From assembly GCA_015068825.1 (NCBI GenBank), contig SVJU01000014.1, forward strand, positions 1 to 50,053: DNA of 50,053 nucleotides. The letters are read 5' to 3'. Source of the stretch: Oscillospiraceae bacterium (GTDB taxonomy: Bacteria; Bacillota; Clostridia; UMGS1810). Under the pieces are notes generated by a model, which was not told the origin of the DNA, did not search any database, and worked only from the letters and a program-made list of their open reading frames with translations. The position numbers were made by a program, and so were the translations under genes. Positions 3,820 through 38,748 of this stretch are shown piece by piece; position 1 is the first letter of the stretch; each line of letters opens with the position of its first letter.

Positions 3820-3840
3820 AATTTTTCTCCGTTCTTTTGG

Positions 3841-4182
3841 TTAATTATTGCAAAGCCCTTCGGAATATAATTTTCCGCAAGCTATATAAAGCGGATAAGA
3901 AGTTGTAAGAATAGCAATTTTCATTTCTTTTGCAAGTTCAACTATTTCCTTACTTGGTTCTTTTCCTCTTACAAAAACAATAGCCTTCATATCCATCATT
4001 TCAGCTGTTCTTACAACCTGAAGATTAACAAGACCTGTAAGAAGCATAGCCTGATTTTTTACAAAAGCAAGTACATCACTCATAAGGTCGCATCCGCAAG
4101 CTGATAAAACCTCTGTATCAAGACCTTCGCCTTCAGTAAGAACATTTGCTTCCAAAAGTTTTTTAACGGCTTCTATTTTCAT
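3841..4182 (-). CDS. DRTGG-domain-like protein
   Basis: 113-aa protein beginning MKIEAVKKLLEANVL. The open frame extends six codons further upstream, but GGAGGGAG followed by four A residues places the start at this ATG. It shares the CGCDLMSDVLAF segment and a C-terminal Rossmann-like pattern (MKIAILTTSYPLYIACGKL) with DRTGG-domain proteins, and is a distant relative of the 104-aa protein at 1745-2059. It follows tyrS by 25 nt and probably shares its transcript. No function can be assigned beyond a likely regulatory role with the hydrogenase-like protein. Confidence 0.72.
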   Translation of the reverse strand: MKIEAVKKLLEANVLTEGEGLDTEVLSACGCDLMSDVLAFVKNQAMLLTGLVNLQVVRTAEMMDMKAIVFVRGKEPSKEIVELAKEMKIAILTTSYPLYIACGKLYSEGLCNN

Positions 4183-4207
4183 TTTTCTCCCTCCGTACAA
4201 AAAGAAT

Positions 4208-5434: not shown

Positions 5435-5465
5435 TTTTTACTACCCTTTCGTTTTATCATTAGTG

Positions 5466-5500
5466 CCAAAAAATTACACTTATACAAATTTAAGTGTATC
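5466..5500 (-). terminator. Intrinsic terminator after the ATPase gene
   Basis: On the minus strand TACACTTA pairs with TAAGTGTA across a short loop and is followed by ATTTTTTG. It ends transcription of the 349-aa ATPase gene ahead of tyrS. Confidence 0.75.
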
Positions 5501-5507
5501 ACAAAAC

Positions 5508-6557: not shown

Positions 6558-6583
6558 AAAAATCACCTTTCTTAAAAAAATCA

Positions 6584-6637
6584 AAACAAAAAAGCCACAT
6601 TTAATACTATTCATAAATAATATTATATGTGACTTTA
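6584..6637 (-). terminator. Intrinsic terminator after the M23 peptidase gene
   Basis: Minus-strand stem AGTCACAT / ATGTGGCT (one G-U pair) with an AT-rich loop, followed by TTTTTTG. It separates the M23 peptidase gene from the ATPase gene. Confidence 0.7.
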
Positions 6638-6661
6638 TTTTATTTATTTAAATTTACGTTT

Positions 6662-7903
6662 TTATTCAACGCATGAAAGCGGATTTACATTTTTTCCGTT
6701 TTCTATTATTTCAAAGTGAAGATGAGGCCCTGTGCTTCTGCCTGTATTACCAACAGTTGCAATAACATCACCTTTTTTTACCACATCACCACTTGAAACA
6801 AAAATTTCGTTGCAATGAGCATAAAATGTTTCGTAACCGTTATTATGATTTATTTTTACAATGTTGCCATAACCGCCCGATTCATAATCGGCATAAGTTA
6901 CTATTCCTTCATCTGCGGCATAAATTTTTGAACCGGTAGGTCCTACAATATCAATACCCTTATGAAGTCTTGAACCACGCCTGCCATAACGGGATGTAAT
7001 ATTTCCACCGTATGGCATCATAAAGTTTCCTGTTCCAACACCTTTTGGTCTTTCTTTTGTACCAAGTAAAAGAACCTGATTTTTTGGCTGTTTTGTAACT
7101 TCTTTTGATATTATTTTTTCGTTTTCAATTTTACCGTTTATTTTATCTATTCTGTTTACAAAATGCTCAATACCATTTTCGCCTTTAACCGAAATTCTTT
7201 TATTTCCTTCATAAACCTCATCGCTTTTAATTCTTTCTACCTCAAAAGCAATTTCGTTGTCATATTCTTCGATTTCATAAGTAAGAATTTTTATAGAATC
7301 AAAGAAATCATTATCACACAAATTATTTGCGGCAATCTGCACACTTGTTAAAAGTGATGAAGGAGCATATTTTTCTTCTATTTTAACATCACTTTTAATT
7401 TCGCAGCCTTTTGTGCTTTCTTCAATATATTTATTTTTACAAATTTCAAGAGCATCATCAGCATCTTTTTTCGTTCTTACACCCGCTAAATCATTTCCAT
7501 CAACACTTATTACAAACTGCTTAACCATTCTGCCTGTTGATTTTTTTATGTTTTCTGAAATTTCATCATTGCTTGTAACATCATCTTTTTTTATAAGTTT
7601 TAGCGAATACAAAGGTCTACTATCTACAACTTCAAGACCGTTATAATAAGCAGCATATTTTTCGTTTATAGTAGATATAACATTGTTAACCTCTGCTTTT
7701 GAAAGCGAATTTCCAACAAACTCATTATTTATAATAACACCATATCCAAGTGAAAAATTCATATTAAGAAGTAGTGCAATTGCTATTGTTCCTGCCGCTA
7801 TGTTTATTGTTTTTCTTATTTTTAAATCTATTAAGTTATATTTATTTTTTAATTTGCACGCAATATTTTTAATATGTAAAAAATATTTACTAAAAACCTC
7901 CAC
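6662..7903 (-). CDS. Membrane-anchored G5/M23 peptidoglycan endopeptidase
   Basis: 413-aa cell-wall protein. An N-terminal hydrophobic segment (about residues 32-52) anchors it in the membrane. A G5 domain follows, recognisable from the VNGKxxxxKxIxKEVTKxPxNQV pattern (about residues 210-285). The C-terminal 120 residues are an M23 (LytM-type) metallopeptidase with ligands in LHKGIDIVGP and GPHLHFEI, so the zinc site appears intact. M23 enzymes cut peptide cross-links in peptidoglycan. The start is taken as GTG at 7903 because AAGGAG lies 8 nt upstream; the longer open frame to 7951 has no RBS. It diverges from the small-gene operon at 8066 and ends at a terminator. A role in growth or sporulation cannot be decided from sequence. 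Confidence 0.88.
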   Translation of the reverse strand: MEVFSKYFLHIKNIACKLKNKYNLIDLKIRKTINIAAGTIAIALLLNMNFSLGYGVIINNEFVGNSLSKAEVNNVISTINEKYAAYYNGLEVVDSRPLYSLKLIKKDDVTSNDEISENIKKSTGRMVKQFVISVDGNDLAGVRTKKDADDALEICKNKYIEESTKGCEIKSDVKIEEKYAPSSLLTSVQIAANNLCDNDFFDSIKILTYEIEEYDNEIAFEVERIKSDEVYEGNKRISVKGENGIEHFVNRIDKINGKIENEKIISKEVTKQPKNQVLLLGTKERPKGVGTGNFMMPYGGNITSRYGRRGSRLHKGIDIVGPTGSKIYAADEGIVTYADYESGGYGNIVKINHNNGYETFYAHCNEIFVSSGDVVKKGDVIATVGNTGRSTGPHLHFEIIENGKNVNPLSCVE

Positions 7904-7950
7904 GCATTCATCTCCTTGAAATATTAAAAAAATATTAATTTTGTTACACA

Positions 7951-7979
7951 ATTGTTAAAATTCTATGTAAATTGTTAAA
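7951..7979 (-). repeat. Direct repeat in the M23 promoter region
   Basis: ATTGTTAAA occurs twice, at 7951-7959 and 7971-7979, exactly 20 bp apart (about two helical turns). On the minus strand one copy supplies a TTAACA that could be the -35 of the M23 gene, 18 bp ahead of TATTTT. The repeat could be an operator, or chance in AT-rich DNA. Confidence 0.3.
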
Positions 7980-8003
7980 TTCCTTCTTTTTTTTAAAACT
8001 TTT

Positions 8004-8032
8004 TTAACATTTTTTGTTTTCGCACATATAAT
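8004..8032 (+). promoter_or_regulatory. Promoter of the three-small-gene operon
   Basis: TTAACA (8004-8009) and TATAAT (8027-8032) with a 17-bp spacer, 34 nt ahead of the first small gene. Confidence 0.7.
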
Positions 8033-8065
8033 ATACTAAAAATAGTATTAAAAGGAAGTGTTTTT

Positions 8066-8326
8066 ATGGCTAACGGCAACGCAGAAATGATATTAAGACA
8101 GCTTTTAAACTCTGATATAGGAAAAATGGCAATAAAAAATTTGAACGCCGCATCAGAAAGTGATATAAAAAGAAAAATTGCCGATATGAATAAAGATGAA
8201 CTTGTAAGAAAATTAAATTCATTAAATTTAAGTGGTTATGCACAAAAGCTCAACTCAATAAGTAAAACCGATATAATAAGAGTTTTAAACGAAAATCCTG
8301 ATCTTTTAAAAAGCTTATTAAAATAA
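8066..8326 (+). CDS. Small hypothetical protein (86 aa)
   Basis: 86-aa hydrophilic protein starting MANGNAEMILRQLLNSDIG, with no signal peptide or membrane segment. It looks all-helical, with two similar LNS.. segments (VRKLNSLNLSGYAQKLNSIS) that suggest an internal helical repeat. RBS AAGGAAG lies 9 nt before the ATG. First gene of a three-gene unit on the plus strand; the second starts 14 nt after its stop. I do not recognise the family. The next gene shares the MAN start and the DxGxK pattern near its N-terminus. Confidence 0.75.
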   Translation: MANGNAEMILRQLLNSDIGKMAIKNLNAASESDIKRKIADMNKDELVRKLNSLNLSGYAQKLNSISKTDIIRVLNENPDLLKSLLK

Positions 8327-8340
8327 AGGAGGATTTAAAA

Positions 8341-8640
8341 ATGGCAAACGATATCGGCAATAAAATAAACGAAATTTTAAATAATCCTGATGCAATGGGA
8401 AAAATATCAGATATGATGTCGGGTATGAAAAATAATCAGAATCAAAACAGCATACCCGATGCGGATATGATGGAAAAGGTATCCAGAATTGCAAGTAAAA
8501 TGAGCGATAAATCCGACCCTAAAATAAATCTTTTATACGCATTAAGACCTTATATGAACAACACCAGAAGTCAGCACATTGACAGAGCAATTAAAATGAT
8601 TCAGCTTACAAAAATAACCGAGCTTTTTAAAGATTTATAA
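8341..8640 (+). CDS. Small hypothetical protein (99 aa)
   Basis: 99-aa soluble protein. The first half is Met/Asn-rich and low in complexity; the second half carries KINLLYALRPYMNNTRSQHI, a pattern I associate with short uncharacterised clostridial proteins (LLxALRPYL..R). RBS AAAGGAGG lies just before the ATG. Middle gene of the three-gene unit, followed 17 nt later by a small membrane protein gene. No function assigned. Confidence 0.75.
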   Translation: MANDIGNKINEILNNPDAMGKISDMMSGMKNNQNQNSIPDADMMEKVSRIASKMSDKSDPKINLLYALRPYMNNTRSQHIDRAIKMIQLTKITELFKDL

Positions 8641-8657
8641 AGGGGGTTATTTTATTA

Positions 8658-8894
8658 ATGGCAAGGCAGTTTTATGACGGATATAACGAATGTTATGAAA
8701 ACAAAAACAATTTGATATGTGAAAATAAAAGTAATAATTTTTTGTCGGCATTTAATTTAAACTCCATTTTTAACGATTTTAATATTGATGATATTATTCT
8801 TCTTACAATTGCCATTGTGCTTTTACACGACGGCACAGATGACCCAATCCTGCTTATTATTATAGGTATACTTTTTTTAGTGGGTCTTACATAA
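8658..8894 (+). CDS. Small membrane protein (78 aa)
   Basis: 78-aa protein with a hydrophilic Asn-rich N-terminal half and a hydrophobic C-terminal half: DDIILLTIAIVLLHDGTDDP followed by LLIIIGILFLVGL. This gives one or two short membrane segments with a D-D pair between them. Similar short IDDLLLL...DD..LLIL proteins occur in many Clostridia, some near sporulation genes, but I cannot assign a role. RBS AAAGGGGG precedes the ATG. It ends at the bidirectional terminator shared with fhs. Confidence 0.72.
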   Translation: MARQFYDGYNECYENKNNLICENKSNNFLSAFNLNSIFNDFNIDDIILLTIAIVLLHDGTDDPILLIIIGILFLVGLT

Positions 8895-8897
8895 AGA

Positions 8898-8932
8898 TAA
8901 AAATCCTTCCCACACGGGAAGGATTTTTATTT
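8898..8932. terminator. Bidirectional terminator between small-gene operon and fhs
   Basis: AAAATCCTTCCC / GGGAAGGATTTT stem with a four-base loop and T-runs on both strands. It serves the plus-strand small genes and the minus-strand purine operon. Confidence 0.9.
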
Positions 8933-8944
8933 ATCAAATAAATT

Positions 8945-10618
8945 TTAGAACAATCCGCTGATTTTTCCGTTTTCATCAACGTCTATTTTTTCTGCAGCAG
9001 GAACTTTTGGAAGTCCGGGCATTGTCATAATTTCACCTGTTAAAACAACTATAAAGCCTGCACCTGCAGAAATTTTTACATTCCTTACTGTTACTGTAAA
9101 TCCGCTTGGCGCACCAAGAAGTGTTAAGTCATCTGAAAAACTGTACTGTGTTTTTGCAATACAAACAGGAAGCTTATCAAATCCAAGCTCTGTAAGCTTT
9201 TGAATTTGTTTGTCTGCCGCTTTTGTAAAGTTTACACCATCACCGCCATAAACCTTTTTAACAACAGCTTCAATTTTTTCTTTGATGCTTAAATCATCCT
9301 CGTATGAGAAGGTGAAATCATTTTCTTTTTCACAAAGTGAAACAACCTCTTTTGCAAGGTCAATACCACCATCGCCACCTTTTGCCCAAACATCAGAAAG
9401 TACAACATTTACGCCAAGCTTTTTGCACTCATCAATAATAAACTCAACCTCTTTATCGGTATCTGTAGGGAATTTATTAACTGCCACAACAAGTGGAAGC
9501 TTATAAACATTCTGTATATTTGAAACATGTCTTAAAAGGTTTGGAATACCTTTTTTAAGAGCATCAAGATTTTCGTTTCCAAGTTCTGTTTTTGCCATAC
9601 CACCGTGCATTTTAAGTGCTCTTATTGTTGCAACAAGAACAACTGCATCAGGTTTAAGATTGGCAAAACGGCATTTTATATCAAGGAATTTTTCTGCGCC
9701 AAGGTCAGCACCAAAGCCAGCTTCAGTAACTGCATAATCACCAAGCTTCATAGCCATTTTTGTTGCTATAACAGAGTTACAGCCGTGTGCTATGTTTGCA
9801 AAAGGTCCGCCGTGAACAAATGCAGGAGTGCCTTCTAATGTCTGAACAAGGTTTGGTTTGATTGCATCTTTTAAAAGTGCGCACATTGCACCCTGAGCAT
9901 TTAAATCACCTGCTGTAACGGGCTTATCTTCATAGGTGTAACCAACAATTATTCTTGCAAGTCTTTCTTTTAAATCGGTGATTGATGATGCAAGACACAA
10001 AACAGCCATAATTTCTGATGCAACTGTTATATCATAGCCATCTTCTCTTGGAACACCATTAATTTTTCCGCCAAGACCGTCTGTTACAAATCTTAGCTGT
10101 CTGTCGTTCATATCTACGCATCTTTTCCATGTAATACGTCTTGGGTCAATATTAAGTGAATTACCCTGATAAATATGGTTATCAAGCATTGCAGCCAAAA
10201 GATTGTTAGCTGCACCAATTGCGTGAAAATCACCTGTAAAATGAAGGTTTATATCCTCCATTGGAATAACCTGTGCATATCCACCGCCTGCTGCACCGCC
10301 TTTAATACCAAAAACAGGTCCTAAAGATGGCTCTCTTAGTGCCACAACAACATTTTTGCCTATTTTTTTAAGACCGTCTGCAAGACCTATTGTTGTTGTG
10401 GTTTTTCCCTCACCTGCAGGAGTTGGTGTGATTGCGGTAACAAGTATAAGCTTACCGTCTTTTTTATCATTTTCTTTTAAAAGTGCCAAATCAACCTTTG
10501 CTTTAACATTTCCGTATTGTTCAAGATATTTTTCGTCTACACCGGCTACCTTTGCAATTTCTTTTATATTTTTGGGTGTAACCGACTGAGCAATTTCAAT
10601 ATCGCTTTTATAACTCAT
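8945..10618 (-). CDS. fhs: Formate-tetrahydrofolate ligase
   Basis: 557-aa ligase that makes 10-formyl-THF from formate, THF and ATP. The P-loop-like motif [19 protein letters not shown] is visible near residue 70, with the conserved [20 protein letters not shown] and FTGDFHAI segments. Length is normal. Last gene of the purine operon, 68 nt after purL, separated from it by a GC-rich hairpin without a proper U-run. Its presence here couples one-carbon supply to the two formyl-THF-using enzymes encoded upstream (PurN and the AICAR formyltransferase). fhs is a known target class of ZTP riboswitches, in line with the riboswitch at the operon's head. Confidence 0.97.
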
Positions 10619-19878: not shown

Positions 19879-19933
19879 AAAAAACATTTTTGGGCAGCCC
19901 CGTAAACATAAAACAATTTATAGGACTGCCCAG
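19879..19933 (-). terminator. Riboswitch-controlled intrinsic terminator ahead of purE
   Basis: On the minus strand GGGCAGTCC pairs with GGGGCTGCCC across a loop of about 20 nt, followed by AAAAATGTTTTTTC. The 5' strand of the terminator begins inside the 3' end of the aptamer (shared GGGC), so aptamer folding and terminator folding should exclude each other. Confidence 0.88.
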
Positions 19934-20016
19934 ACGGTCGGCTTATTTAAACTTTTGCTCCCTTGTGGTTTACCACTGCTTAAAGATTTTAAACATTCCG
20001 TCAGTCGCAAAAGCCT
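19925..20016 (-). promoter_or_regulatory. ZTP (pfl) riboswitch aptamer
   Basis: Minus-strand leader of the purine operon. P1 is CTTTTGC (20013-20007) with GCAAAAG (19958-19952). The conserved GACTGACGGA follows. P2 is GTGG/CCAC (19976-19965), then AAGGGAGC. The 3' domain reads GCCGACCGTCTGGGC (19942-19928). The pseudoknot GACGG (20002-19998) with CCGTC (19938-19934) is intact. This is the pfl/ZTP riboswitch architecture; the ligand is ZMP/ZTP, which signals 10-formyl-THF shortage. Bound ligand is expected to block the overlapping terminator and turn on purE-fhs. I identified it from the consensus by eye; a covariance-model search would settle it. Confidence 0.92.
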
Positions 20017-20036
20017 TTATTCAATTATATGTATAT

Positions 20037-27970: not shown

Positions 27971-27982
27971 TTTGATTTTATG

Positions 27983-28018
27983 AGCGGACAGAATTTTATT
28001 TTCTGTCCGCTTTATTTA
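27983..28018 (+). terminator. Terminator after the prsA-like gene
   Basis: Stem AGCGGACAGAA / TTCTGTCCGCT with a seven-base loop followed by TTATTTAT. It isolates the housekeeping operon from the accessory operon that follows. Confidence 0.88.
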
Positions 28019-28183: not shown

Positions 28184-28546
28184 ATGTTTGTCAACTTCTC
28201 AAATCACCCATCCGAAAAATGGGAGGAAAAACAAATTAATAAAGCTTTGGAATTTGGCAAAATTACCGATATTCCATTTCCTGATGTTTCGCCCGAAATG
28301 TCTGAAGATGAAATTGATGATATTGCAAAAGATATTGTTGAAAAAATAGTATCCTTAAACCCAAAAGCAGTAATGTGTCAGGGCGAATATACTCTTTCGT
28401 TCAATGTTTCGTTAAGGCTTTTAAAAAAAGGAATAAATGTTGTTTGTGCCTGCTCCGAAAGATGCACAATTGAAACACAAAGTGGCAAAAACAATATGAG
28501 AAATTCGCTTTTTTCATTTGTAAAATTCAGAAAACTGGAGTTATAA
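28184..28546 (+). CDS. Conserved unknown, possible Csx20-like protein (120 aa)
   Basis: 120-aa soluble protein starting MFVNFSNHPSEKWEEKQ, with PFPDVSPEMSEDEIDDIA, then VMCQGEYTLSFNV and a Cys-rich strand VVCACSER. The pattern (N-[FL]-[ST]-N-H-P-S near the start, Q-G-E-[FY]-T-L in the middle, A-x-S-E-R near the end) is one I have met in small Rossmann-like proteins annotated in places as CRISPR-associated (Csx20 or similar). I cannot verify this, and no cas genes or arrays are in the window. AAGGAG precedes the ATG. First gene of the accessory operon; the amylase gene starts 4 nt after its stop. Confidence 0.72.
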   Translation: MFVNFSNHPSEKWEEKQINKALEFGKITDIPFPDVSPEMSEDEIDDIAKDIVEKIVSLNPKAVMCQGEYTLSFNVSLRLLKKGINVVCACSERCTIETQSGKNNMRNSLFSFVKFRKLEL

Positions 28547-28550
28547 ACAT

Positions 28551-30245
28551 ATGGATACATCAAAAATATTACATATTAACAGCAGATATCACACACAGGA
28601 TTTATTTGTTGAAGAAATAGGCAAAATAGGCATAAGAATACGCTGCGGTAAAGATATCGACGGTGTTGTAGTTGTATACAACGACCCTTATGTGCGCACC
28701 GTTACCGAAAATGGTCTTTACTGGCCATATAAAAAAGCCGAAATGAAAGTAAGCGGCGAAACTAATGAATTTAAATTCTTTTCTGTTTCTATAGATGCTT
28801 TAAGCCGACGACTAAAATACTATTTTTTAATTTATTCAAAAGACCAAGTTCTTCAATATTCCGAAACCGGCTTTACATCAGGCTATAACCACGATGATAT
28901 GTCTATGTTTTTTGTACCGTATATTGACAAAAACAGAATTCATTTGCCATACAGTTGGCTTAAAAATACAGTTTGGTATCAGATTCTGCCATCAAGATTT
29001 TCTAATTATAAAAACAGCAAAAACTGTAATCTTAAAGGCATTATGTCAAAACTTGAGTATTTAAAAAAGCTTGGAATTACAGGACTTTATTTAAACCCTG
29101 TTTACCACGGAAAATCGTATCATAAATATGATGTTATAGATTACGAACACATTGACCCTGATTTTGGAACTGATGAAGATTTTGTGCTTCTTTGTAACAA
29201 GGCTCACAAAATGGGTATGAAGGTTATGATGGATATTTCGTTTACCCATTGTTCATCCAGTAACAAATTCTGGCTTGATGTAATAAAAAACAAAGAAAAT
29301 TCAAAATATTTTGACTGGTTCAACATATACAAAGATGAAAAAGGCAATTTTTGCTACGAAACATTTGCCTACGAAAAAGAAATGCCAAAATTCAATACCG
29401 AAAATTTTAAGGTTATTGAATATTTTTGCAACAAAGTAGTAAAAAAATGGATGATGTTATGCAATATAGATGCATGGAGAATTGATGTCGCAAACGAAAT
29501 AAGCGATGAGCTTTTAATAAATGTAAAAAATGTTATGCACTCAATAAATCCACAGTCTTATATAGTTGGCGAAATATGGCACAACGCATCCGACTGGATA
29601 TCAAAAAAACGCCTTGACGGTGTTACAAATTATGCACTTTCAAGGTCAATCCTTTCGTTTGTTTGTGCGCCTTTTCACGATGTCAACAAATTCAAAAACG
29701 ATATCATCTGCCTTTTGCACTCATATTCACCCTGTCAGATTATAATGTCAATGCCACTTTTGGATTCGCACGATACTCCAAGATTAAGATATATGGCAAA
29801 TCAGGATAAAGACAAAGTAAAACTTTCGCTGTTTCTTCTTTTTACTTTTTATGGCGCTCCTTCAATTTACTACGGAACAGAGCGTTTTATGGACGGCGCA
29901 GGTGACCCTGATTGCAGAAGAAAAGTAGACTGGAAGGATACATCACCCGATACAGAAGAGTTTTTTAATATTACAAGCACCTTAATAAAATTAAGAAAAA
30001 ACCATCCCGAACTTTCAAACGACGGTACTTACGAATTTTTAAATGATGAAGATATACTCGTTTTTAAAAGACAAAGTTATAACAAAACATATTGGTGTGT
30101 TGTAAATCCAAACGAATACGATACACAATGCCATCTTAATTTTGCTTGTGGTAAAAAATTTAAAAATATAATAAATGGTGATACCATTTTTGAAAATATT
30201 AAAATGAACCGTCTTGGGTTTATGATATTAGAGGAGGATAAATAA
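28551..30245 (+). CDS. GH13 alpha-amylase family glycosidase (neopullulanase/cyclomaltodextrinase-like)
   Basis: 564-aa cytoplasmic GH13 enzyme without a signal peptide. An N-terminal beta-sandwich region of about 130 residues precedes the TIM barrel, which opens with WYQILPSRFSN. The catalytic residues are in place: nucleophile Asp312 in WRIDVANE, acid/base Glu341 in VGEIWH, and Asp408 in DSHDTPR. Region I reads DISFTHC, with Thr where most enzymes have Asn. The layout resembles neopullulanase or cyclomaltodextrinase, so a maltodextrin-type substrate is likely. Its place in a kinase/helicase operon is odd: 4 nt after the 120-aa gene and 1 nt before the DUF4145-like gene. No sugar transporter or other carbohydrate gene is near. 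Confidence 0.9.
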   Translation: MDTSKILHINSRYHTQDLFVEEIGKIGIRIRCGKDIDGVVVVYNDPYVRTVTENGLYWPYKKAEMKVSGETNEFKFFSVSIDALSRRLKYYFLIYSKDQVLQYSETGFTSGYNHDDMSMFFVPYIDKNRIHLPYSWLKNTVWYQILPSRFSNYKNSKNCNLKGIMSKLEYLKKLGITGLYLNPVYHGKSYHKYDVIDYEHIDPDFGTDEDFVLLCNKAHKMGMKVMMDISFTHCSSSNKFWLDVIKNKENSKYFDWFNIYKDEKGNFCYETFAYEKEMPKFNTENFKVIEYFCNKVVKKWMMLCNIDAWRIDVANEISDELLINVKNVMHSINPQSYIVGEIWHNASDWISKKRLDGVTNYALSRSILSFVCAPFHDVNKFKNDIICLLHSYSPCQIIMSMPLLDSHDTPRLRYMANQDKDKVKLSLFLLFTFYGAPSIYYGTERFMDGAGDPDCRRKVDWKDTSPDTEEFFNITSTLIKLRKNHPELSNDGTYEFLNDEDILVFKRQSYNKTYWCVVNPNEYDTQCHLNFACGKKFKNIINGDTIFENIKMNRLGFMILEEDK

Positions 30246-30246
30246 T

Positions 30247-30669
30247 ATGTTGTTTGAGTTTATACTGGATAAAAAATCACCTCTTAAAAGCTACGAAAGT
30301 CTTTATAGCATACTTAACGATGTGGAAAAATGTTTAAAATCAAATCCTGTTGAAGCGGTTCTTCGTGCAAGGGTTGCAGAAGAAAGATTTATTAATGCTA
30401 TTCTTGAAATAAACGGCATTGAAATTCCCGACGATCTTGGAATGCGAAAAAATCTAAAGCTTGAATGTACTGCAAACAAGCTTAATTTCTTATTTGAAAA
30501 AGGCTTTATTAATAAAACACAGCTTACATATTTAAATGCAGTAAGACGCGCAGGAAACATTGTTGCCAACCAGAAAACAGAAGATGAAAATGATATTGAT
30601 GCAAATAAAGTAGTTGAATTTCTTTATGAAGCAATTAAAATTTATGTAGAAAATTTTAAGGAGATATAA
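30247..30669 (+). CDS. DUF4145/HEPN-like domain protein (140 aa)
   Basis: 140-aa helical protein. It aligns by eye with the N-terminal 140 residues of the next gene product: both start MLF[ED], share R-A-R-x-A-x-E-R-F-I-N-A and LEINGI, and carry an [RN]xxRxAGNxxA motif. The AGN motif with flanking helices resembles DUF4145, a HEPN-like domain seen in restriction and defence proteins. Here the His that normally follows (AGNDATH) is Asn (AGNIVANQ). If the family is catalytic, this copy probably is not. RBS GGAGGA lies just before the ATG; the next gene starts 2 nt after its stop, so translation is likely coupled. Confidence 0.75.
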   Translation: MLFEFILDKKSPLKSYESLYSILNDVEKCLKSNPVEAVLRARVAEERFINAILEINGIEIPDDLGMRKNLKLECTANKLNFLFEKGFINKTQLTYLNAVRRAGNIVANQKTEDENDIDANKVVEFLYEAIKIYVENFKEI

Positions 30670-30671
30670 GA

Positions 30672-32099
30672 ATGCTATTCGATATATTGAAAGATGAAAA
30701 TTCCCGTCTTAAAGACTACAACAATATTTACCGACATTGTATCGACTGCGAAAAAACAGTAAGAACACATCCTTTTAACATTCAGATGAGAGCAAGAACT
30801 GCACTTGAAAGATTTATTAATGCAGTTTTAGAAATAAACGGAATAAAAATTCCCGAAGACAAAGATGAAAAAAAGGAAAAAGGTCTTGATTCACTTTACG
30901 ATAAAATCAATGTTTGCTTTGAAAATAATTTTATAGATGAATGTCACAAACGCGACATAAGAAATGTAAGGCTTGCGGGCAATGATGCTACTCACGAAAA
31001 AGACGAATACGAAGAAGCTGCAGATATATTAAGGTCGTTGTATGTGGTTATTGCATCTTATGCCATGAACGAAAGAATAACAAGAATTTCTGATACCGAA
31101 GTCATAAAGTATTATGATAAAAACAAAGAAGAACATGTTGTAAAGCAAGATGGATATGAAACAGAAGACCTTTTGCCAATAGGTGATTACGAAGTAATAA
31201 AACCTCTTTTTGCTATTCCTGATTCAAAAAATCCAAAACCTTCAAAAAGTATAAAGATGTACAGATGTAAAAAAACAACATCTTTTGGAGCAAATAACGA
31301 TACTCAATATGCAATTATAAAAAAATACATAAAAAATGCAACAGATGATGTAACACAGTTTCGCGATCAGTTAGCAATACACACAATCAAAAAGTATTAT
31401 AACATTCTTGAAAAACCGCCTATTCTTGCCGAAGAAATCGAAACATCAATTGATAACGATTACAACTATCTTTGCTATTTAACAAGTGAAAAAACATTTT
31501 TGTTAAGCCAGAAAAACACTTTCAGAAAATACATTCAATCAAGAAAATTAAAAACAGACAACGAAATGTTTTTTGTTAAGCTTAATATTTTAAAAGACAT
31601 TGTAGAAATTTTAAATTCGCTTATAGATATTACCGAAAATATATCACTTCATCACAGAAACCTTCGTCCCGACTGTATATTTTTAACTCCAACTCACAAA
31701 GGGCTTGGTGTTAATGTGGGTAATTTTGAATATTCTAAGGTAATGGATACCGCCAATATGAGCGAAGAAGCTGCTACAATAAACATAAATGCCTATGCAA
31801 AAAAGGTGTCGGACGACCCGTTTGCATCACCCGAAGTTAAAGATGCATCAATTAAAAAAATGGGTACTCCTAACTGGGAACAGGTTGATATTTATGCCTG
31901 CGCAAAAATGGCACTTTATATTTTGTGCGGTGATGCTGCAAACGAAAACATTCATAAAAACCTTGATTACATAAGCCAGACCTTATCTTACGATTTTTAT
32001 GAAATTACCAAAAAAATTCTTGAAACTCCCTACCCTTCAAGACCTACTCTTAAAGAGTATTTAAAGGCAATTAAAAAAGAGCTTATAGAGCTTGAATAA
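30672..32099 (+). CDS. DUF4145-like domain fused to a Ser/Thr pseudokinase
   Basis: 475-aa protein. Residues 1-140 are the same DUF4145/HEPN-like domain as the preceding gene, with the fuller motif VRLAGNDATH. Residues from about 170 to 470 follow a protein-kinase fold: YAIIKKY resembles the VAIK lysine strand and HHRNLRPDC the HRDLKPxN loop. The catalytic Asp is Asn330. The DFG Asp is Gly350 (GNF), and APE is replaced by GTPNWEQ, followed by VDIYACAKMALYILCG. Both key acidic residues are lost, so it should be a pseudokinase, perhaps a scaffold or regulator for the active kinase encoded 22 nt downstream. AAGGAG precedes the ATG. Confidence 0.8.
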   Translation: MLFDILKDENSRLKDYNNIYRHCIDCEKTVRTHPFNIQMRARTALERFINAVLEINGIKIPEDKDEKKEKGLDSLYDKINVCFENNFIDECHKRDIRNVRLAGNDATHEKDEYEEAADILRSLYVVIASYAMNERITRISDTEVIKYYDKNKEEHVVKQDGYETEDLLPIGDYEVIKPLFAIPDSKNPKPSKSIKMYRCKKTTSFGANNDTQYAIIKKYIKNATDDVTQFRDQLAIHTIKKYYNILEKPPILAEEIETSIDNDYNYLCYLTSEKTFLLSQKNTFRKYIQSRKLKTDNEMFFVKLNILKDIVEILNSLIDITENISLHHRNLRPDCIFLTPTHKGLGVNVGNFEYSKVMDTANMSEEAATININAYAKKVSDDPFASPEVKDASIKKMGTPNWEQVDIYACAKMALYILCGDAANENIHKNLDYISQTLSYDFYEITKKILETPYPSRPTLKEYLKAIKKELIELE

Positions 32100-32121
32100 A
32101 TTTTAAAGGAGAAATTGTAAA

Positions 32122-32970
32122 ATGGCAGAAAACAAACTTATTTTTAATAATAATTTTGAATATATAATTTTAGAAACCATTTACAAATCAAATAAAAACA
32201 AAACTGCCTTTTACAAAGCAATGGAAAAATATACAGGCAGAATTGTAGGTATAAAATACATTGAAACTACTCCAAATCTTATAAACGAATACATAAAAGG
32301 TATAAGAGTTCTTATTAACCTTGAAAGTAATGTTAAAAACATTCCAACTGTTTATCAGTATTATACACAAAAAACTTCTATTTTTGTAATAATGCAGTTT
32401 ATAGAAGGCAAAACTCTTTCTAAAATTATGGAGAGCGAAAAGAATGCCTGTCTTGAAAAAGATACCACCTATTTAAACTTAAAAAGGCTTAAAAAACTTT
32501 GCGAGGTTTTAAAACAGGTTCATCAGAAAAACTCCAATAATGGCTATACGCAGCACAAAGACTTAAAGCCTGATAACATTATTATTAAAGGAAAATTCCC
32601 CATCGAAGATGTTTATCTTATTGATTTTGACTTATCAAGTGCCACAATTGCAAAAGGCACGGTTGGTTATCAAGCACCCGAGCAAAGCGATATGTTTTCC
32701 AAAATGACAAACCATACAAGAATTGATGTTTTTTCATTCGGACTTATTATGTACGAGCTTTTATGCGGTGAAAAACTTATTTTTGGTCAGCATCTTATTC
32801 TGGATATTGAAAATAATCAATGGAAAAACATTCCAAAAATTTCTGATATCAACAAAAATATCACACCGGAAATTGACCAAATATTCAAAAAATGTATTGC
32901 ATTTAATCCCCAAGAAAGATTTAATGACGGAGGAGAAATTTTATGTCAGCTAAGAAAAATAATCAAATAG
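32122..32970 (+). CDS. Serine/threonine protein kinase
   Basis: 282-aa kinase domain with little else. The Lys strand reads VGIKYIE, the catalytic loop HKDLKPDNIII (Asp147), the metal motif DFD (Asp168, DFG with the third residue changed) and the activation segment ends GTVGYQAPEQ. Helix F is RIDVFSFGLIMYELLCG. The essential Lys, Asp, Asn and Asp are all present, so it should be active. The glycine-rich loop is poor (ETIYKSNKNKTAFYKA). There is no PASTA domain or membrane segment, unlike the housekeeping PrkC. RBS AAAGGAG precedes the ATG. Its 3' end overlaps the 51-aa gene by 28 nt. Confidence 0.87.
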   Translation: MAENKLIFNNNFEYIILETIYKSNKNKTAFYKAMEKYTGRIVGIKYIETTPNLINEYIKGIRVLINLESNVKNIPTVYQYYTQKTSIFVIMQFIEGKTLSKIMESEKNACLEKDTTYLNLKRLKKLCEVLKQVHQKNSNNGYTQHKDLKPDNIIIKGKFPIEDVYLIDFDLSSATIAKGTVGYQAPEQSDMFSKMTNHTRIDVFSFGLIMYELLCGEKLIFGQHLILDIENNQWKNIPKISDINKNITPEIDQIFKKCIAFNPQERFNDGGEILCQLRKIIK

Positions 32971-33098
32971 AACGAATTGGAAATATTTTTGATGAGCAGG
33001 ACAGAAAATTTATTTCACTTAAAGATAAAAATTTAGAAAAATTCACCAGCTTACCCGAAAGAAAAGAGGCGAGAGTATGGCCCAAAGTAACTCTTTAA
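32943..33098 (+). CDS. Small 51-aa protein overlapping kinase and helicase genes
   Basis: A 51-codon frame starts at ATG 32943 inside the 3' end of the kinase gene and ends at TAA 33096-33098 inside the first codons of the next frame. GGAGGAG lies 6 nt before the ATG, one of the better RBSs in the operon. The product starts MSAKKNNQIERIGNIFDEQD and is charged, probably helical, without cysteines or membrane segment. It could be a bona fide small subunit or a coupling peptide bringing ribosomes to the helicase start at 33077. No relatives are known to me. Confidence 0.55.
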   Translation: MSAKKNNQIERIGNIFDEQDRKFISLKDKNLEKFTSLPERKEARVWPKVTL

Positions 33099-33301
33099 CC
33101 AAAAGATTAGACCTTATAGAAAATCAATGGTATCATTCGCAATGTCCCATTGTGTTTTTTGCGTTCAAATCTCTTTTTGCCAATTATCCAAAAGAAGCGG
33201 CAGAAGTAAGAGAAATTCTTCTTAATACCAAAAGAACAAGAGTTCTTGAAATAGGAAACATTGCAAAGTTAAACGGCAATGTTGTATTTCAGATATTTTA
33301 A
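33077..33301 (+). pseudogene. N-terminal piece of the SF1 helicase, separated by a frameshift
   Basis: 74-codon frame starting MAQSNSLTKRLDLIENQWYH, preceded by AGAGG 7 nt before the ATG. It ends at TAA 33299-33301. The -1 frame is open from 33250 and runs without a stop into the helicase. Adding one T at the TTT of 33287-33289 would join ...LNGNVVF to SDILNGLLVNLRL and give one protein of about 1143 aa. So this is most likely the true N-terminus of the helicase, cut off by a one-base deletion or read error. A programmed -1 shift is possible: GTTAAAC (33268-33274) is correctly phased in the overlap. Confidence 0.65.
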
Positions 33302-33393
33302 ACGGCCTTCTTGTTAATTTAAGACTCAACTCGCAAAACAGAAATTTTAATATTACAAGTATTTTAGATACATCAAAAAATCCTGGTCCGAGA

Positions 33394-36300
33394 ATGCACT
33401 TTATTGAAAGCGAAAGAAAAACAATAAGTGTAGAAAAATTCGGCATCATTTTTTCAAAAGAACCTGTTGATGGCGGTGCCCACGAAGTAATGCCTCTTGA
33501 TGTTGCAGAAAAAATGAAACAGACCCATTCTCTTGATCACAATGACAATATGCCGAAAGCATTTTATGATGAACTTTCAAATTACATTACATCAAGTGCA
33601 AAACAGCTTGAAATTGAAGAAAAAAAGAAAGAATTCAAAGCGAAGTGGTTTTCGGATAAGTATCTTGATAATGTTCTTCACTATGCCGATTTTGAATATG
33701 AACTCGAACAGGATAAAACCGACAGTTCATATTCTCTTACATATACATCACGAAAATCAATAAAACAAGATGGTGACAAAAGCCACAAATATATTTATGA
33801 GTTCATCTGCCCTGATTTTGACACAGAAATGTATCCGCAAAACAGTGAGGTTGATGTTATTTTAGCTTCTGATGACCCAAACCGTCCCAAAAGACTAAAA
33901 GGCTCCATTTTTCAGATTGAAGATGCTTCTGACAATCAGAAAAGGCTCATTATAACCTTCAGAAATCAGTTTAACGAAAAAGACCTTCCCGAGTATGGAC
34001 AGATTAAAAGAAAAGCAAATGAATGTCAGAAAAATGTTCGTTACAAGGTTGTTGAACAATTTAAAACGGGCGAAGTTAAATCAAAATATATGCTTACTGC
34101 ATTTAATAATCATAAAAAAATTGTAACTCAGGATTTTGAAAAACTAAAAAATATAGATGCAATTATGAAGGAAATTGAAGACAGAGCACCAAAAGGACAA
34201 AAGCCTTTTGAAAAGCAGAAGGATGCAATAAAAGCCGGTATTTTATCAAAAGATTTAGCGCTTGTATTAGGCCCTCCGGGAACAGGCAAAACCACAGTTA
34301 TTGTTGAATGGGCACTTTATTTTATGCGTCAGGGAAAAAGGGTTTTAATATCATCCAAAAATAACAAAGCGGTTGACAACGCATTTGAAAGAATTGCAGA
34401 AAAACAGTTAGAAATGCCAGAGCTTAAAGACCATATTATTGCCCGTCTTGGCAATGTGGACAAGGTTCAGGATAATGTAAAGGATTATCTTATTGACAAT
34501 CAGCACGAAGCAATACAACAAAAAATTCTTTCATCTGCATCAAGCTGTGCACTGCAACTGAAAAAAGACCTTGAAAGTATTGCAGCTGCCGAAGGTGACC
34601 TGAAAAAAATGTCCCAGAATCTTGAAAGATTTTTCAAGATAAAAAATGAACTTGAAACAAACTACTATAAAAAAATAAACCAATGTATTCAAAAGATTCT
34701 GTCTGAGCACAACAATATTAAAGAAGAACAAGCTAAAGTTGAAAGTCAGATTGAAAGCCTTAATGCTATAAAGGAAAAAATAGCAGAAGCAAGAATTTAT
34801 CTTGAAGAAGAAAAGAAAAGATTTATTCTTATAAGACTTTTCCACAAAAGAGAAACAAACTACATACAAAAAAATCATGACGCACTTGTAAGGGAATTTA
34901 ACGCAGCCAAAATAACCGACGGAAGTATTCCGCACATAAAAAAATACAACGATGCTGTTTTAAATATCAAAAAGCTTTTAAATGACCAGACATTCAAGAA
35001 TTTGAAAAACGAATACCGCAACCTTGAAAAGGTACTTTCAGGCAATAAAAAGATATCTGTTAACCCTGCTTTTTATCCGGCTGTTTCTTATACATTTTCA
35101 GATGACAAGGAAAAATTTAATGCGTTTTTAAATCAGCTTAAATCCTTAAAGAAAAAAATGTTATATCTGAAAGAAATTCTTGGTGAATGGCACTCAATTG
35201 TTACGGATAAAACCAATACCGTTTTATCTGACATTCTTATAGACAGTGTTTCGGTTGTTGGTGCAACCTGTATAGGAATAAACACAAACAGGCAGTTTAC
35301 CAATGTGGATTTTGATGTTGCAATTATTGACGAAGCAGGGCAAATCCAGATTCACGATGCAATAGTTCCTATGTCGCGCGCAACAAAAACCCTTATGCTT
35401 GGCGACCACAAACAAATTCCGCCACAGGTTGATGATGCAATGATTAAAAAATGCCGTGAAAAAAATGTAGATACAACACTTTTGGAACAAAGCTTTTTCC
35501 AATATATTTTTGAAAAAGGCAATATTGACGAAAGCCACAAAATTTCACTCGACACACAATTTCGTATGCCAAAGCCTGTTGCAGATATACTGTCATATCA
35601 GTTTTACGACAACAAGTATTTTTCTTATAAAGACAAGCATACAGACGACAGAAGCGATGAGTGTAAAAAAGTATTTTCAAAACAGCTTGTTCTTATTGAC
35701 ACCTCCGATTCTGATGAGCGCTTTGAAAAAGAAGTAAAAAATAAGGATTCAAAAAATATAGAACGATACAATCCTTATGAGGCTAAACTCGTTGCAACTG
35801 TTCTTAAGAAATTTGGCGCAGGAAGCGAAAATCCACTTTTTGGAATTGATAAAATCGGTGTTATAGCACCTCTTAAAAAGCAAAAAGAAACCATTCAGAA
35901 AACAGTTAAGCAAAATATAAAATCGCTATCAGATGCAAACATAAAATCTATGATTGCCACACTTGACAGTTTTCAGGGACAGGAAAGAAAGCTTATTATT
36001 TACAGTTCTACCAGAAGCAATAAAATTAACAGCATCGGCTTTTTAAACGAATTAAGAAGACTTAATGTTGCACTTTCAAGATGTAAAGAACAACTTGTAT
36101 TTATTGGGGATTTCAGCTTTTTAACAACCTGTGTTGACAAGGAAAGAAAAGATAACGATTCGTTTAAAAACAATAACAACCTTAACAATAAAAATGGATT
36201 TTTCTTCAGCGGCGAAACATTTGAAAACGAAGAAGAATACGAATATGAGGAAAATCAGTATGACCAATACTCTGATTCATATGACGATGACGAATTTGAA

Positions 36301-36507
36301 ATAGATGAGAGCGAATTTGACGAAGTATATGATGACGAATTTGACCAGAATACCGAGGATGAGTATAGTGACGAAGATAAAGATGGTTATGTATCTCCCG
36401 AGCTTGACAAAACGGTAAGAAGATTTTCTGAATTTATGCAGTATTTTGTTGACGAAGTAAAAAAAGGAAACGGGCTTTACATTAAATCTAAAGACCTTGG
36501 AGAATAA
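33394..36507 (+). CDS. Upf1-like superfamily 1 helicase (DNA2/NAM7 type)
   Basis: 1037-aa frame from ATG 33394, probably the main part of a protein that begins at 33077 (see the separated N-terminal piece). No RBS precedes 33394, and the frame is open back to 33250 with protein-like sequence (NGLLVNLRLNS). Walker A is GPPGTGKTT (about residue 293), Walker B is IIDEAGQ (Asp646), then LGDHKQIPPQV, LDTQFRMPKPV, SFQGQERKLIIYSSTRS and RRLNVALSRCK. These are Upf1-family SF1 motifs. A long coiled-coil-like insert lies between motifs Ia and II. The last 100 residues hold a very acidic Glu/Asp/Tyr tract. The substrate, RNA or DNA, cannot be told from sequence. Confidence 0.88.
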   Translation: MHFIESERKTISVEKFGIIFSKEPVDGGAHEVMPLDVAEKMKQTHSLDHNDNMPKAFYDELSNYITSSAKQLEIEEKKKEFKAKWFSDKYLDNVLHYADFEYELEQDKTDSSYSLTYTSRKSIKQDGDKSHKYIYEFICPDFDTEMYPQNSEVDVILASDDPNRPKRLKGSIFQIEDASDNQKRLIITFRNQFNEKDLPEYGQIKRKANECQKNVRYKVVEQFKTGEVKSKYMLTAFNNHKKIVTQDFEKLKNIDAIMKEIEDRAPKGQKPFEKQKDAIKAGILSKDLALVLGPPGTGKTTVIVEWALYFMRQGKRVLISSKNNKAVDNAFERIAEKQLEMPELKDHIIARLGNVDKVQDNVKDYLIDNQHEAIQQKILSSASSCALQLKKDLESIAAAEGDLKKMSQNLERFFKIKNELETNYYKKINQCIQKILSEHNNIKEEQAKVESQIESLNAIKEKIAEARIYLEEEKKRFILIRLFHKRETNYIQKNHDALVREFNAAKITDGSIPHIKKYNDAVLNIKKLLNDQTFKNLKNEYRNLEKVLSGNKKISVNPAFYPAVSYTFSDDKEKFNAFLNQLKSLKKKMLYLKEILGEWHSIVTDKTNTVLSDILIDSVSVVGATCIGINTNRQFTNVDFDVAIIDEAGQIQIHDAIVPMSRATKTLMLGDHKQIPPQVDDAMIKKCREKNVDTTLLEQSFFQYIFEKGNIDESHKISLDTQFRMPKPVADILSYQFYDNKYFSYKDKHTDDRSDECKKVFSKQLVLIDTSDSDERFEKEVKNKDSKNIERYNPYEAKLVATVLKKFGAGSENPLFGIDKIGVIAPLKKQKETIQKTVKQNIKSLSDANIKSMIATLDSFQGQERKLIIYSSTRSNKINSIGFLNELRRLNVALSRCKEQLVFIGDFSFLTTCVDKERKDNDSFKNNNNLNNKNGFFFSGETFENEEEYEYEENQYDQYSDSYDDDEFEIDESEFDEVYDDEFDQNTEDEYSDEDKDGYVSPELDKTVRRFSEFMQYFVDEVKKGNGLYIKSKDLGE

Positions 36508-36509
36508 AA

Positions 36510-37655
36510 ATGGAACAAGAAAAAATATTAAATCAGGAAAATCCTGATCAGAATGCCCCCAAAAAGAAAAAAAGGGATAAATACCGATTTAAATATCTTT
36601 CAAATCCGGGCAAGCATTTAAGAAACTGGGTTGATTCCACGCCAGATTTTTTAAATTATGGAAAAATTGAATATTTTTATGGATTTTTGTGTCCTGTTTC
36701 AACTGCAAGTGTCAAGGTTTTAGAAAGAGCCAATTCCGACTACGACACTTTAGAACTTACAATTTTAAAGCTTTATGATGCAGGCATCAAAGATTCCAAA
36801 GTTATTTCGCTTCTTATGGGAATTAACGAAAAAATGGTTGTAAACATTTTAAATATTTTAAAAAATACATATCATCATATTGATGACGGCAAACTTACAG
36901 CTGAAGGAAGAACATCTTTAAACGAGCAAAAAAATATTCAGGTTTATGAAACAATCAAAACTGTTCAGTTTGAGGCACTTACAGGTTCAATTATTCCGCC
37001 GTCACTTTCGCAGAATATGCTCGGAATCGAGGCGTATTATGACCAGAAAAACATTGATGAAATAAAAAGATTTTTGCCAAAAAGATATATTGAAAAAAAT
37101 GTATACGACGACCTTATAGACCATCTTAGTGACCATAAAATGCAGGGCGTTGTAAGTAGAAATGTTGAAAAAATCATTTCTCTTAAAATTGACAACATAA
37201 TTTACACAGAAGCTTTCCTTATTAAATACGATTTTCTTTTGCATCCGTTCATACTTTTTCCTGTTTTAGGAAGGAACAAAACATTCTGGAATCCCGTTTC
37301 AATAAGTAAAGCGGCAGATGATGCAATGAAAAAGAAAAATCTTATTTTTAAATTCAAAGGCGACTATATATTTGATGCGCCTGTGAAAGATGCAAAGGAT
37401 TTTATAGAGCTTGCTAATATTGAAAATTCATTTAACTTAAGAACTCCCAAAATGCCTCTTTCTCAGACATATTCGAGAAAAAGACCAAAAGATAAAGATA
37501 ATACTGATATTATTGTTGAAACATTCTTTAAACTTGCATCAAAAAATGATGAAGGTGCATTTATAGATACACATCCTGATTCACCATACACACCAGTATA
37601 CAGCGTTATTATTGATGAAAAAGAATATCCTGCAACAAAGGAGGCTGATAAATAG
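36510..37655 (+). CDS. Unknown protein with winged-helix-like region (381 aa)
   Basis: 381-aa protein I do not recognise. A Lys-rich N-terminus (about residues 15-25) leads into YGKIEYFYGFLCPVSTASVK. Residues about 70-125 (TLELTILKLYDAGIKDSKVI, a helix, then a DDGKLTAEG wing) look like a winged helix-turn-helix. The middle segment FEALTGSIIPPSLSQ is distinctive. The C-terminal 70 residues are polar and probably flexible. No nuclease motif (HKD, PD-ExK, HNH) is visible. RBS GGAG; starts 2 nt after the helicase stop, and its own stop overlaps the next GTG start by one base, so it is tightly coupled to both neighbours. Confidence 0.78.
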   Translation: MEQEKILNQENPDQNAPKKKKRDKYRFKYLSNPGKHLRNWVDSTPDFLNYGKIEYFYGFLCPVSTASVKVLERANSDYDTLELTILKLYDAGIKDSKVISLLMGINEKMVVNILNILKNTYHHIDDGKLTAEGRTSLNEQKNIQVYETIKTVQFEALTGSIIPPSLSQNMLGIEAYYDQKNIDEIKRFLPKRYIEKNVYDDLIDHLSDHKMQGVVSRNVEKIISLKIDNIIYTEAFLIKYDFLLHPFILFPVLGRNKTFWNPVSISKAADDAMKKKNLIFKFKGDYIFDAPVKDAKDFIELANIENSFNLRTPKMPLSQTYSRKRPKDKDNTDIIVETFFKLASKNDEGAFIDTHPDSPYTPVYSVIIDEKEYPATKEADK

Positions 37656-38287
37656 TGTGGACTTGTGCATGTAAAACGCAAAACAATACAAGCTCTCCTT
37701 TTTGCACAAATTGTAAAAGTGTTATGCCATCTTCGGAAAGAAAGAGAATTTATAATGAGCAGCTTTTAATGGCACAAAAGGCACTTGGCATAGATTATAT
37801 AGGTGATATTGAAAAAGCCGCTCAGGAACTTCTTGGTGACAAAACAATTACAGTTGATAAAATATCAAGTGCAATATTCAGAATACCGCAAATTATTCTT
37901 ATGTGGTTTTTTAAACACAAGATTATAATTATTTCGGTTCTGTTGTTTATTACTTTCTTTTCTTCTTTTACAAGTTTATTTTCATCTGAAAGTAAATATA
38001 TACGCAATCAAACAAGAATTGAAAACATAATAAACAGACGTGTGATTACAGAAAATATATCATCAAAGCTTAAAAGCATTCCCGACAGGACTAAATATTA
38101 TTTTGATAATCCGGCAAATAGTATAAATGATGAAGTAAGGCAGGAGTTTAAAGAAAAATTTGCCGCCGTTAACCAAGGCATTGACAAAGTAAAGCAAAAT
38201 GTTAATAATCTTATTCAGGATGGTCTTATTAAGCTTGAAAAAATATTGGAAGAATGTATAAACAAAATTAAGGAGATGAAAAAATGA
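37655..38287 (+). CDS. Zinc-ribbon single-pass membrane protein
   Basis: 210-aa protein starting at GTG with AAAGGAGG about 10 nt upstream; the start overlaps the previous stop (TAGTG). A short zinc ribbon opens it (WTCACKTQN...FCTNC, Cys4, Cys6, Cys17, Cys20). A hydrophobic segment follows at about residues 80-108. The C-terminal 90 residues are amphipathic helix, probably coiled coil (VNQGIDKVKQNVNNLIQDGL). It looks like a membrane anchor with one face carrying the ribbon. It could tether the kinase/helicase complex to the membrane; this is inference. Its 3' end overlaps the next gene by 4 nt. Confidence 0.78.
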   Translation: MWTCACKTQNNTSSPFCTNCKSVMPSSERKRIYNEQLLMAQKALGIDYIGDIEKAAQELLGDKTITVDKISSAIFRIPQIILMWFFKHKIIIISVLLFITFFSSFTSLFSSESKYIRNQTRIENIINRRVITENISSKLKSIPDRTKYYFDNPANSINDEVRQEFKEKFAAVNQGIDKVKQNVNNLIQDGLIKLEKILEECINKIKEMKK

Positions 38288-38709
38288 TATTTAAACCTGT
38301 TCTTATAATCGTAGATTTTCTTCTTAGTATTATGCTTTTCATACTGGCAAAAAAATCTATGAAAACGGATCATTTAAAATTTGGTGGCAGTGACTTTACA
38401 AAAAAGAAAGAATATAAATCGTCATTTAACAAATGCTTCTGGATGGGAATCGGCATTAAATTTTTATACTGGCTTATTATTCCAGACATAAACAACAAAA
38501 TAGCATCTATGATTAATTTTGGCATCATTATGTGCCTTGCAATTGATTTTTTTGCAATTATTTATTTATTCCCAATGCATCTTATAAAAAAGGATAAATA
38601 TCAAAAATGCTCACCTGCAAGTTCTGCCGAATGGCTTATACGCTCAACAGGATGCATAATTTTGTTATACATACTTGCTTATTTAATTTCTGCACCTGTT
38701 ATGATGTAA
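38284..38709 (+). CDS. Multi-pass membrane protein (141 aa)
   Basis: 141-aa protein with about four hydrophobic segments: the N-terminus (FKPVLIIVDFLLSIMLFIL), FWMGIGIKFLYWLII, INFGIIMCLAIDFFAIIYLF and the C-terminus (GCIILLYILAYLISAPV). No motif is recognised. AAGGAG precedes the ATG, which overlaps the zinc-ribbon gene stop by 4 nt. Last gene of the accessory operon, ending at a strong terminator. The pairing with the single-pass protein suggests the system has a membrane part. Confidence 0.75.
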   Translation: MIFKPVLIIVDFLLSIMLFILAKKSMKTDHLKFGGSDFTKKKEYKSSFNKCFWMGIGIKFLYWLIIPDINNKIASMINFGIIMCLAIDFFAIIYLFPMHLIKKDKYQKCSPASSAEWLIRSTGCIILLYILAYLISAPVMM

Positions 38710-38716
38710 GGATACA

Positions 38717-38748
38717 AAAAAGGACATTCATATATGAATGTCCTTTTA
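38717..38748. terminator. Bidirectional terminator at the end of the accessory operon
   Basis: Perfect inverted repeat AAAAGGACATTCATA / TATGAATGTCCTTTT with T-rich tails on both sides. It serves the plus-strand accessory operon and the minus-strand lactate dehydrogenase operon. Confidence 0.92.

Follow-up and report, generated by a model that had tools for sequence, protein, structure and literature searches.

The gene cluster and its conserved core

This study concerns a 50,053-nucleotide stretch of DNA from an Oscillospiraceae bacterium (contig SVJU01000014.1; hereafter the window), which derives from a draft assembly of 62 contigs that is 96% complete, and in particular a compact gene cluster at positions 28184-38709 of its forward strand, with housekeeping genes on both sides. 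The cluster encodes, in order, a Csx20-family protein, a GH13 enzyme, a lone DUF4145 protein, a DUF4145-pseudokinase, a Ser/Thr kinase, an open reading frame (ORF) of 51 amino acids (aa), a UPF1-like helicase and the products of genes 8, 9 and 10. An earlier note, made from the sequence alone, had described a ten-gene operon with overlaps of 1-28 nucleotides (nt) or very short gaps. Its inventory of a kinase, a DUF4145-pseudokinase, a lone DUF4145 protein, a helicase, a GH13 enzyme and two membrane proteins was recovered in full, and the tight same-strand packing was confirmed, with overlaps of 28 nt (kinase and 51-aa ORF), 22 nt (51-aa ORF and the ORF starting at 33077), 1 nt and 4 nt and remaining gaps of 1-22 nt, a break inside the helicase gene excepted. 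As a unit, however, only genes 4-10 (30672-38709) are conserved, and genes 1-3 lie outside this core.

The core opens with a gene (30672..32099) whose product joins a DUF4145 domain (4e-5) to a pseudokinase that matches the kinase region of MkoA (1.4e-11) and in which HRN replaces HRD and GNF replaces DFG. The pseudokinases of related loci carry N, Q, A or G at the degenerate motif position, the exception being a NERD-kinase from the second G479 locus (see below), which keeps HRD; a search of solved structures with the pseudokinase profile returned nothing useful. The adjoining gene (32122..32970) encodes an active-looking Ser/Thr kinase with the motif HKDLKPDN (Pkinase 4.4e-26), which among models of defence proteins matches MkoA (3.7e-24; PDLC03920 residues 7-278), PD-T4-6 (2.8e-30) and MAD6 (2.4e-29).

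Between kinase and helicase lies the 51-aa ORF (32943..33098), which overlaps both neighbours and falls below the usual ORF cut-off, and is hence easily missed. Similarly placed ORFs of similar sequence occur in the relatives G006 and G359, described below, and its non-overlapping core beats 2000 of 2000 shuffles when compared with the former and 1985 of 2000 with the latter, while its resemblance to a similarly placed ORF of G479 was not significant by shuffles when taken alone. This is the true small gene of the cluster: the ORF at 33077-33301, which the earlier note had counted as a small protein, turned out to be the N-terminus of the helicase. Gene 1, for its part, encodes a member of the Csx20 family.

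The largest core gene (33394..36507) encodes a UPF1/SMUBP2-like superfamily 1 (SF1) helicase with an acidic tail, 1037 aa in length when read from an internal ATG, which matches MkoA at 5.6e-100 (PDLC03920) and, in the PDB, SMUBP2 (3.8e-63) and UPF1 (2e-59). In tblastn searches with intact relatives, the alignment runs from the frame of the N-terminal piece (33077..33301) into the next; with the 1139-aa relative from G006, residues 15-68 align in one frame and residues 75-229 in the other. Judged from these translated alignments, the two pieces (33077-33301 and 33394-36507) are a single gene interrupted by one frameshift near 33290. Programmed frameshifting was considered and rejected. As inspection of 33260-33330 disclosed no good slippery site, and as the helicase is intact in G006 and G359, the loss of one base or an assembly error is the preferred explanation.

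Gene 8 (36510..37655) encodes a 381-aa protein with a winged helix-turn-helix (wHTH), as the earlier note had recognised in calling it an unknown of that kind, and can now be described as an MkoB-type protein that has no PLD nuclease. Its PADLOC match covers MkoB residues 10-124 (1.6e-7), and profile-profile comparison with MkoB proteins (97%, E 4.4e-11) extends over residues 50-162, that is, over the N-terminal wHTH module only; no Pfam PLD match was obtained, and the HxK(x4)D motif is missing from gene 8 and found in none of six gene 8 relatives. Gene 9 (37655..38287) specifies a zinc-ribbon protein with one transmembrane (TM) helix, in which WxCxC..C..C is invariant in three genomes and the hydrophobic segment spans residues 79-111. 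Gene 10 (38284..38709), conserved in the same number of genomes, encodes a small membrane protein that is confidently predicted to form a four-helix bundle (AlphaFold2 predicted local distance difference test score, pLDDT, 81), although the model had no match in the PDB or among viral models. Nor were useful matches obtained when the profiles of genes 8 and 9 were searched against solved structures.

Relatives of the core and their distribution

The seven core genes, in identical order and at different chromosomal sites, were found in two further metagenome-assembled genomes, G006 (RGIG7421, water buffalo colon; locus L005), which belongs to another genus of the same family, and G359 (RGIG5265, sheep colon; locus L006), which belongs to another family. 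The co-occurrence in other Clostridia that the earlier note had put forward as a check thus holds for the core, but not for the first three genes of the cluster. In G359 a CorA-like gene (L006 14112-15458; PADLOC CorA 2e-62), of a family of type III CRISPR effectors, follows gene 10 after 16 bp, and no cas genes were recognised around it in 19 kb of this genome.

More distant relatives retain the arrangement in altered form. In G479 (Bacillota), locus L013 carries a DUF4145-pseudokinase, a kinase, a small ORF, a helicase and a 733-aa homologue of gene 8 that ends in several fused TM segments. A second locus of the same genome (L048; G479:C1:595000-613000, 3493-10250) encodes a NERD-kinase, which is matched by the 1607-position PADLOC MkoA model PDLC03921, a kinase, a helicase and a soluble gene 8 homologue of 426 aa; two split kinase-helicase variants are thus present in one genome. 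A plasmid of Azospirillum lipoferum encodes a PP2C/SpoIIE-like-NERD-pseudokinase (its NERD domain assigned by inspection and a PglW match, without a Pfam match), a kinase, a helicase, a gene 8 homologue and a CorA-like membrane protein; it adjoins the BREX genes brxL and pglZ, and is the only locus with BREX neighbours.

Gene 8 was found in 2 of 16 genomes of the family and 3 of 391 of the class; a profile search of 398 genomes of the phylum retrieved the window genome and G479, and a broader profile gave 3 of 343. No relatives came from viral contigs, scanned with gene 8 and with the pseudokinase, or from plasmids, scanned with gene 8. The earlier note had named an invariant site across a whole family as evidence against its reading; this did not hold, since the operon is absent from the seven family genomes in which the contig runs on beyond mfd-prsA, and other genes are found there. 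This sporadic presence, together with the other genes after mfd-prsA, is the pattern of an accessory module.

Canonical Mokosh type I loci, in which MkoB comes after an MkoA that joins kinase and helicase in one protein, were identified in Nostoc, Anabaena, Pseudanabaena, Aliarcobacter, Microvirga, Aminobacter, G418 and G534. MkoB consists of an N-terminal wHTH module and a C-terminal PLD domain; of six MkoB proteins inspected for the HxK(x4)D motif, four have it, and the two alphaproteobacterial ones lack it despite their strong MkoB matches. In the loci of these two, on Microvirga and Aminobacter plasmids (L096 and L098), the MkoA-MkoB pair, whose MkoB has no PLD match, is followed by a PP2C phosphatase, which supports phosphorylation as the control layer. 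In a tree of the helicase core the six split loci group together (99/98) with none of the eight fused MkoA proteins inside the group, in a tree of 16 rows with uncertain rooting and several long branches. Neither a fused MkoA nor an MkoB with a PLD domain was found in the window operon, and because these two defining features fail, it is on its sequence not classed as a strict member of Mokosh. In a search for the MkoB family, the 105 genomes mostly gave PLD-only or wHTH-only matches, which do not indicate Mokosh.

A separate observation concerns a 114-kb contig classed as viral (IMGVR_UViG_3300013382_000007, L105, 7293-12429), in which a UPF1-like helicase lies beside a protein of 635 aa that resembles the PLD domain of MkoB in its C-terminal part (97%); a zinc-ribbon/TM gene lies upstream of this helicase.

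Non-core genes and surroundings

Gene 1 (28184..28546) encodes a Csx20-family, ring-nuclease-like protein of 120 aa (PADLOC Csx20 4.1e-30 over residues 1-117), although at 26 of 70 bits it falls below the NCBIfam Csx20 equivalog cut-off. Four homologues in the class are 41-50% identical over a full-length alignment, and three of them belong to type III CRISPR loci; those in L093 and L094 adjoin Cas10-like genes and that in L095 adjoins RAMP genes. No Cas10 palm domain was detected in the 96% complete window genome, and gene 1 lies outside any type III CRISPR locus; searches of phage and viral sequences with its product found no relatives. Csx20 cleaves cyclic tetra-adenylate (cA4; PMC12409355), and gene 1 may be either a leftover or a sign of a nucleotide signal used by the operon. 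In a second Csx20-DUF4145 neighbourhood (L092, G377:C34, 2328-5088), a Csx20 homologue 50% identical to that of the window lies 44 bp after a gene for a 777-aa DUF4145 protein, and the short contig showed no CRISPR genes.

Gene 2 (28551..30245) encodes a 564-aa GH13 enzyme of neopullulanase/cyclomaltodextrinase type (Pfam Alpha-amylase 7.3e-56) with an N-terminal Ig-like domain, and its top PDB match is neopullulanase 1j0h (1.5e-92). A GH13 homologue close to the equivalent site in G008 (28% identity) was judged coincidental. The product of gene 3 (30247..30669), the lone DUF4145 protein, is 40% identical over 136 aa (E 4e-27) to the N-terminal domain of the pseudokinase, and the two genes share a DNA repeat, D1 (79% identity over 68 nt); by this resemblance gene 3 is a duplicate of that domain, and it therefore belongs to the history of the operon. 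None of the three genes was found in the loci of the relatives, which leaves the proposal of a single ten-gene system unsupported.

Upstream of the cluster lie mfd and a PrsA-like gene, and downstream a FAD oxidase with etfAB, secA and prfB. The strong terminator that the earlier note had placed at 38717 was confirmed as an intrinsic terminator on the forward strand (38718-38747; a 13-pair stem with a T-rich tail) that marks the end of the operon, and a second terminator hairpin (27982-28012) closes the upstream operon. The promoter proposed at 28098 is not significant, the scan being uninformative, with 65 promoter-like sites in the sequence and 53 +/- 7 in its shuffled versions. The codon fit of all nine scored cluster genes is slightly below the housekeeping average, and their GC content is 0.29-0.34 against mostly 0.34-0.38 in the surroundings, which together offer a weak hint of foreign origin. 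Elsewhere in the window, a ZMP/ZTP riboswitch (19921-20018, minus strand) precedes a purine operon, and six tRNA genes are clustered at 30-691, also on the minus strand.

Discussion

At the level of sequence, the comparisons reported here establish the homology of the parts to Mokosh components, the loss of the PLD domain, the conserved gene order and, in independent lineages, the presence of membrane proteins adjoining or fused to gene 8. Based on these findings, we propose, with a probability of roughly 60%, that genes 4-10 are an accessory operon acting against phages and represent a split lineage, sister to Mokosh type I, in which membrane proteins probably serve as the effector. The earlier note had cited Mokosh as a parallel of different composition; the relation to type I stands and is closer than was held, since gene 8 is of MkoB type. 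Its suggestion of a membrane-tethered, phosphorylation-controlled defence system draws support from the kinase/pseudokinase pair, the conserved membrane proteins and the defence linkage of one relative, while the defence role and the membrane action are still matters that we infer.

In the proposed mechanism, the UPF1-like helicase would probably sense, or load onto, foreign RNA or DNA, and the kinase/pseudokinase pair, with DUF4145 as a scaffold, would phosphorylate a partner once the helicase engages. Gene 8 would relay the signal through its MkoB-type wHTH, and genes 9 and 10 would probably act as the effector, bringing about membrane damage or depolarisation and thereby growth arrest of infected cells. 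The main argument for an exchanged effector is that membrane proteins occupy the position of the MkoB nuclease, fused in the case of G479 and adjacent in the others.

Several points weigh against this proposal. No other defence gene was recognised among the ORFs flanking the window operon, and in Pfam and PADLOC the products of genes 9 and 10 could be assigned neither to a known effector family nor to the CorA family, nor do these membrane proteins match any solved fold. The AlphaFold2 model of gene 8 is poor (pLDDT 38) and unusable for a fold search, and the conserved C-terminal half of this protein belongs to no recognised family or known fold. In locus L048 of G479, kinases, helicase and gene 8 occur with no membrane partner seen nearby. 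The last two points, together with the anchor-like layout of gene 9 (a zinc ribbon and a single TM helix), would also suit a Mokosh-related defence system in which genes 9 and 10 serve as anchors or detect the entry of phage, the effector being the helicase itself or the C-terminal half of gene 8. We regard this as rather unlikely, given that gene 8 of G479 carries fused TM segments and that the CorA-like gene of Azospirillum directly follows gene 8, in each case where MkoB has its nuclease. The frameshifted helicase is a further difficulty, and the window copy of the operon may be inactive as a result. An operon in decay, inactive in this genome through a helicase deprived of its ~75-100 N-terminal residues, is compatible with any of the other readings and is a rather unlikely state of affairs: one shift parts two otherwise well-conserved frames that are joined in G006 and G359, but all other core genes are open, the motor region of the helicase is intact, the 1037-aa piece has its own ATG, and a base error is possible in a draft of this kind.

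The UPF1/SMUBP2 class of the helicase, the housekeeping genes around the operon and the recognised GH13 catalytic family might instead indicate a stress or RNA quality-control operon, in which a kinase-controlled helicase acts on host RNA and GH13 provides a link to glycogen metabolism. This is very unlikely, for the nearest annotated relatives of the kinase, the helicase and gene 8 are defence proteins, gene 8 is restricted to so few genomes of the family, the other loci have no GH13 gene and the Azospirillum copy adjoins BREX. Least probable of all is that the operon additionally employs a nucleotide second messenger, which the Csx20-like ring nuclease would tune and to which, in G359, the CorA-like protein would respond. 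The Csx20-family gene does head the cluster, 4 nt before the GH13 gene, in a genome where no Cas10 was found, the activity of Csx20 on cA4 would fit, as would the closely following CorA-like gene of G359, and a CorA-family membrane effector is reported to respond to SAM-AMP (PMC12255297); yet none of the loci has a recognisable cyclase or SAM-AMP synthase, the relatives of the operon have no Csx20, and gene 1 could be a remnant or belong to another system. It is likewise distinctly improbable that the operon represents a class of its own, in which a kinase/pseudokinase-controlled UPF1-like helicase drives exchangeable membrane effectors by way of an MkoB-type adaptor, and in which nucleotide signalling (Csx20-like, CorA-like) is superimposed without CRISPR.

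A sister lineage of Mokosh that keeps the sensor, the kinase and the adaptor but replaces the nuclease would separate sensing from killing, and would allow the MkoB N-terminus to be tested as an adaptor by exchanging domains. Our data suggest that bacteria swap the killing end of Mokosh-type defence as a module, and that the exchange of effectors, familiar from CBASS and type III CRISPR, also takes place in kinase-helicase defence. The study has also furnished a search profile for related loci, which the PADLOC Mokosh models recognise just partly.

Comparison with known systems

Resemblances to other defence systems are confined to parts of the cluster. Gene 1 matches the Csx20 of type III CRISPR over its full length and has homologues mostly in type III loci, but it scores under the equivalog cut-off in a genome with no detected Cas10; CorA-like genes, akin to type III effectors, follow the core in G359 and Azospirillum, while the window has none. 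The kinase domain is similar to those of the MADS kinase MAD6 and of PD-T4-6; no MADS methyltransferase or other mad genes were recognised in the window, and PD-T4-6 is a lone kinase. PglW of BREX type 2 and some DndF proteins contain an inactive and an active kinase in tandem after NERD (PMC12839542), an arrangement that the window presents as two adjacent genes; in contrast to these systems, its proteins are separate and its helicase is an SF1 enzyme of UPF1 type, and no PglX, PglZ, BrxD or Dnd genes were recognised among the window ORFs.

The closest likeness is to Mokosh type I, with which the operon shares a homologous Ser/Thr kinase and UPF1-like helicase, the order kinase, helicase and MkoB-like protein, and in gene 8 the N-terminal wHTH module of MkoB. 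It differs in that kinase, pseudokinase and helicase are separate genes in the window, G006, G359, both loci of G479 and Azospirillum, as opposed to fused in the eight canonical loci; in that DUF4145 stands where Mokosh has NERD, a domain listed for type I (PMC10952713); and in that gene 8 has dispensed with the PLD nuclease, while two conserved membrane proteins and a protein of ~50 aa have been added.

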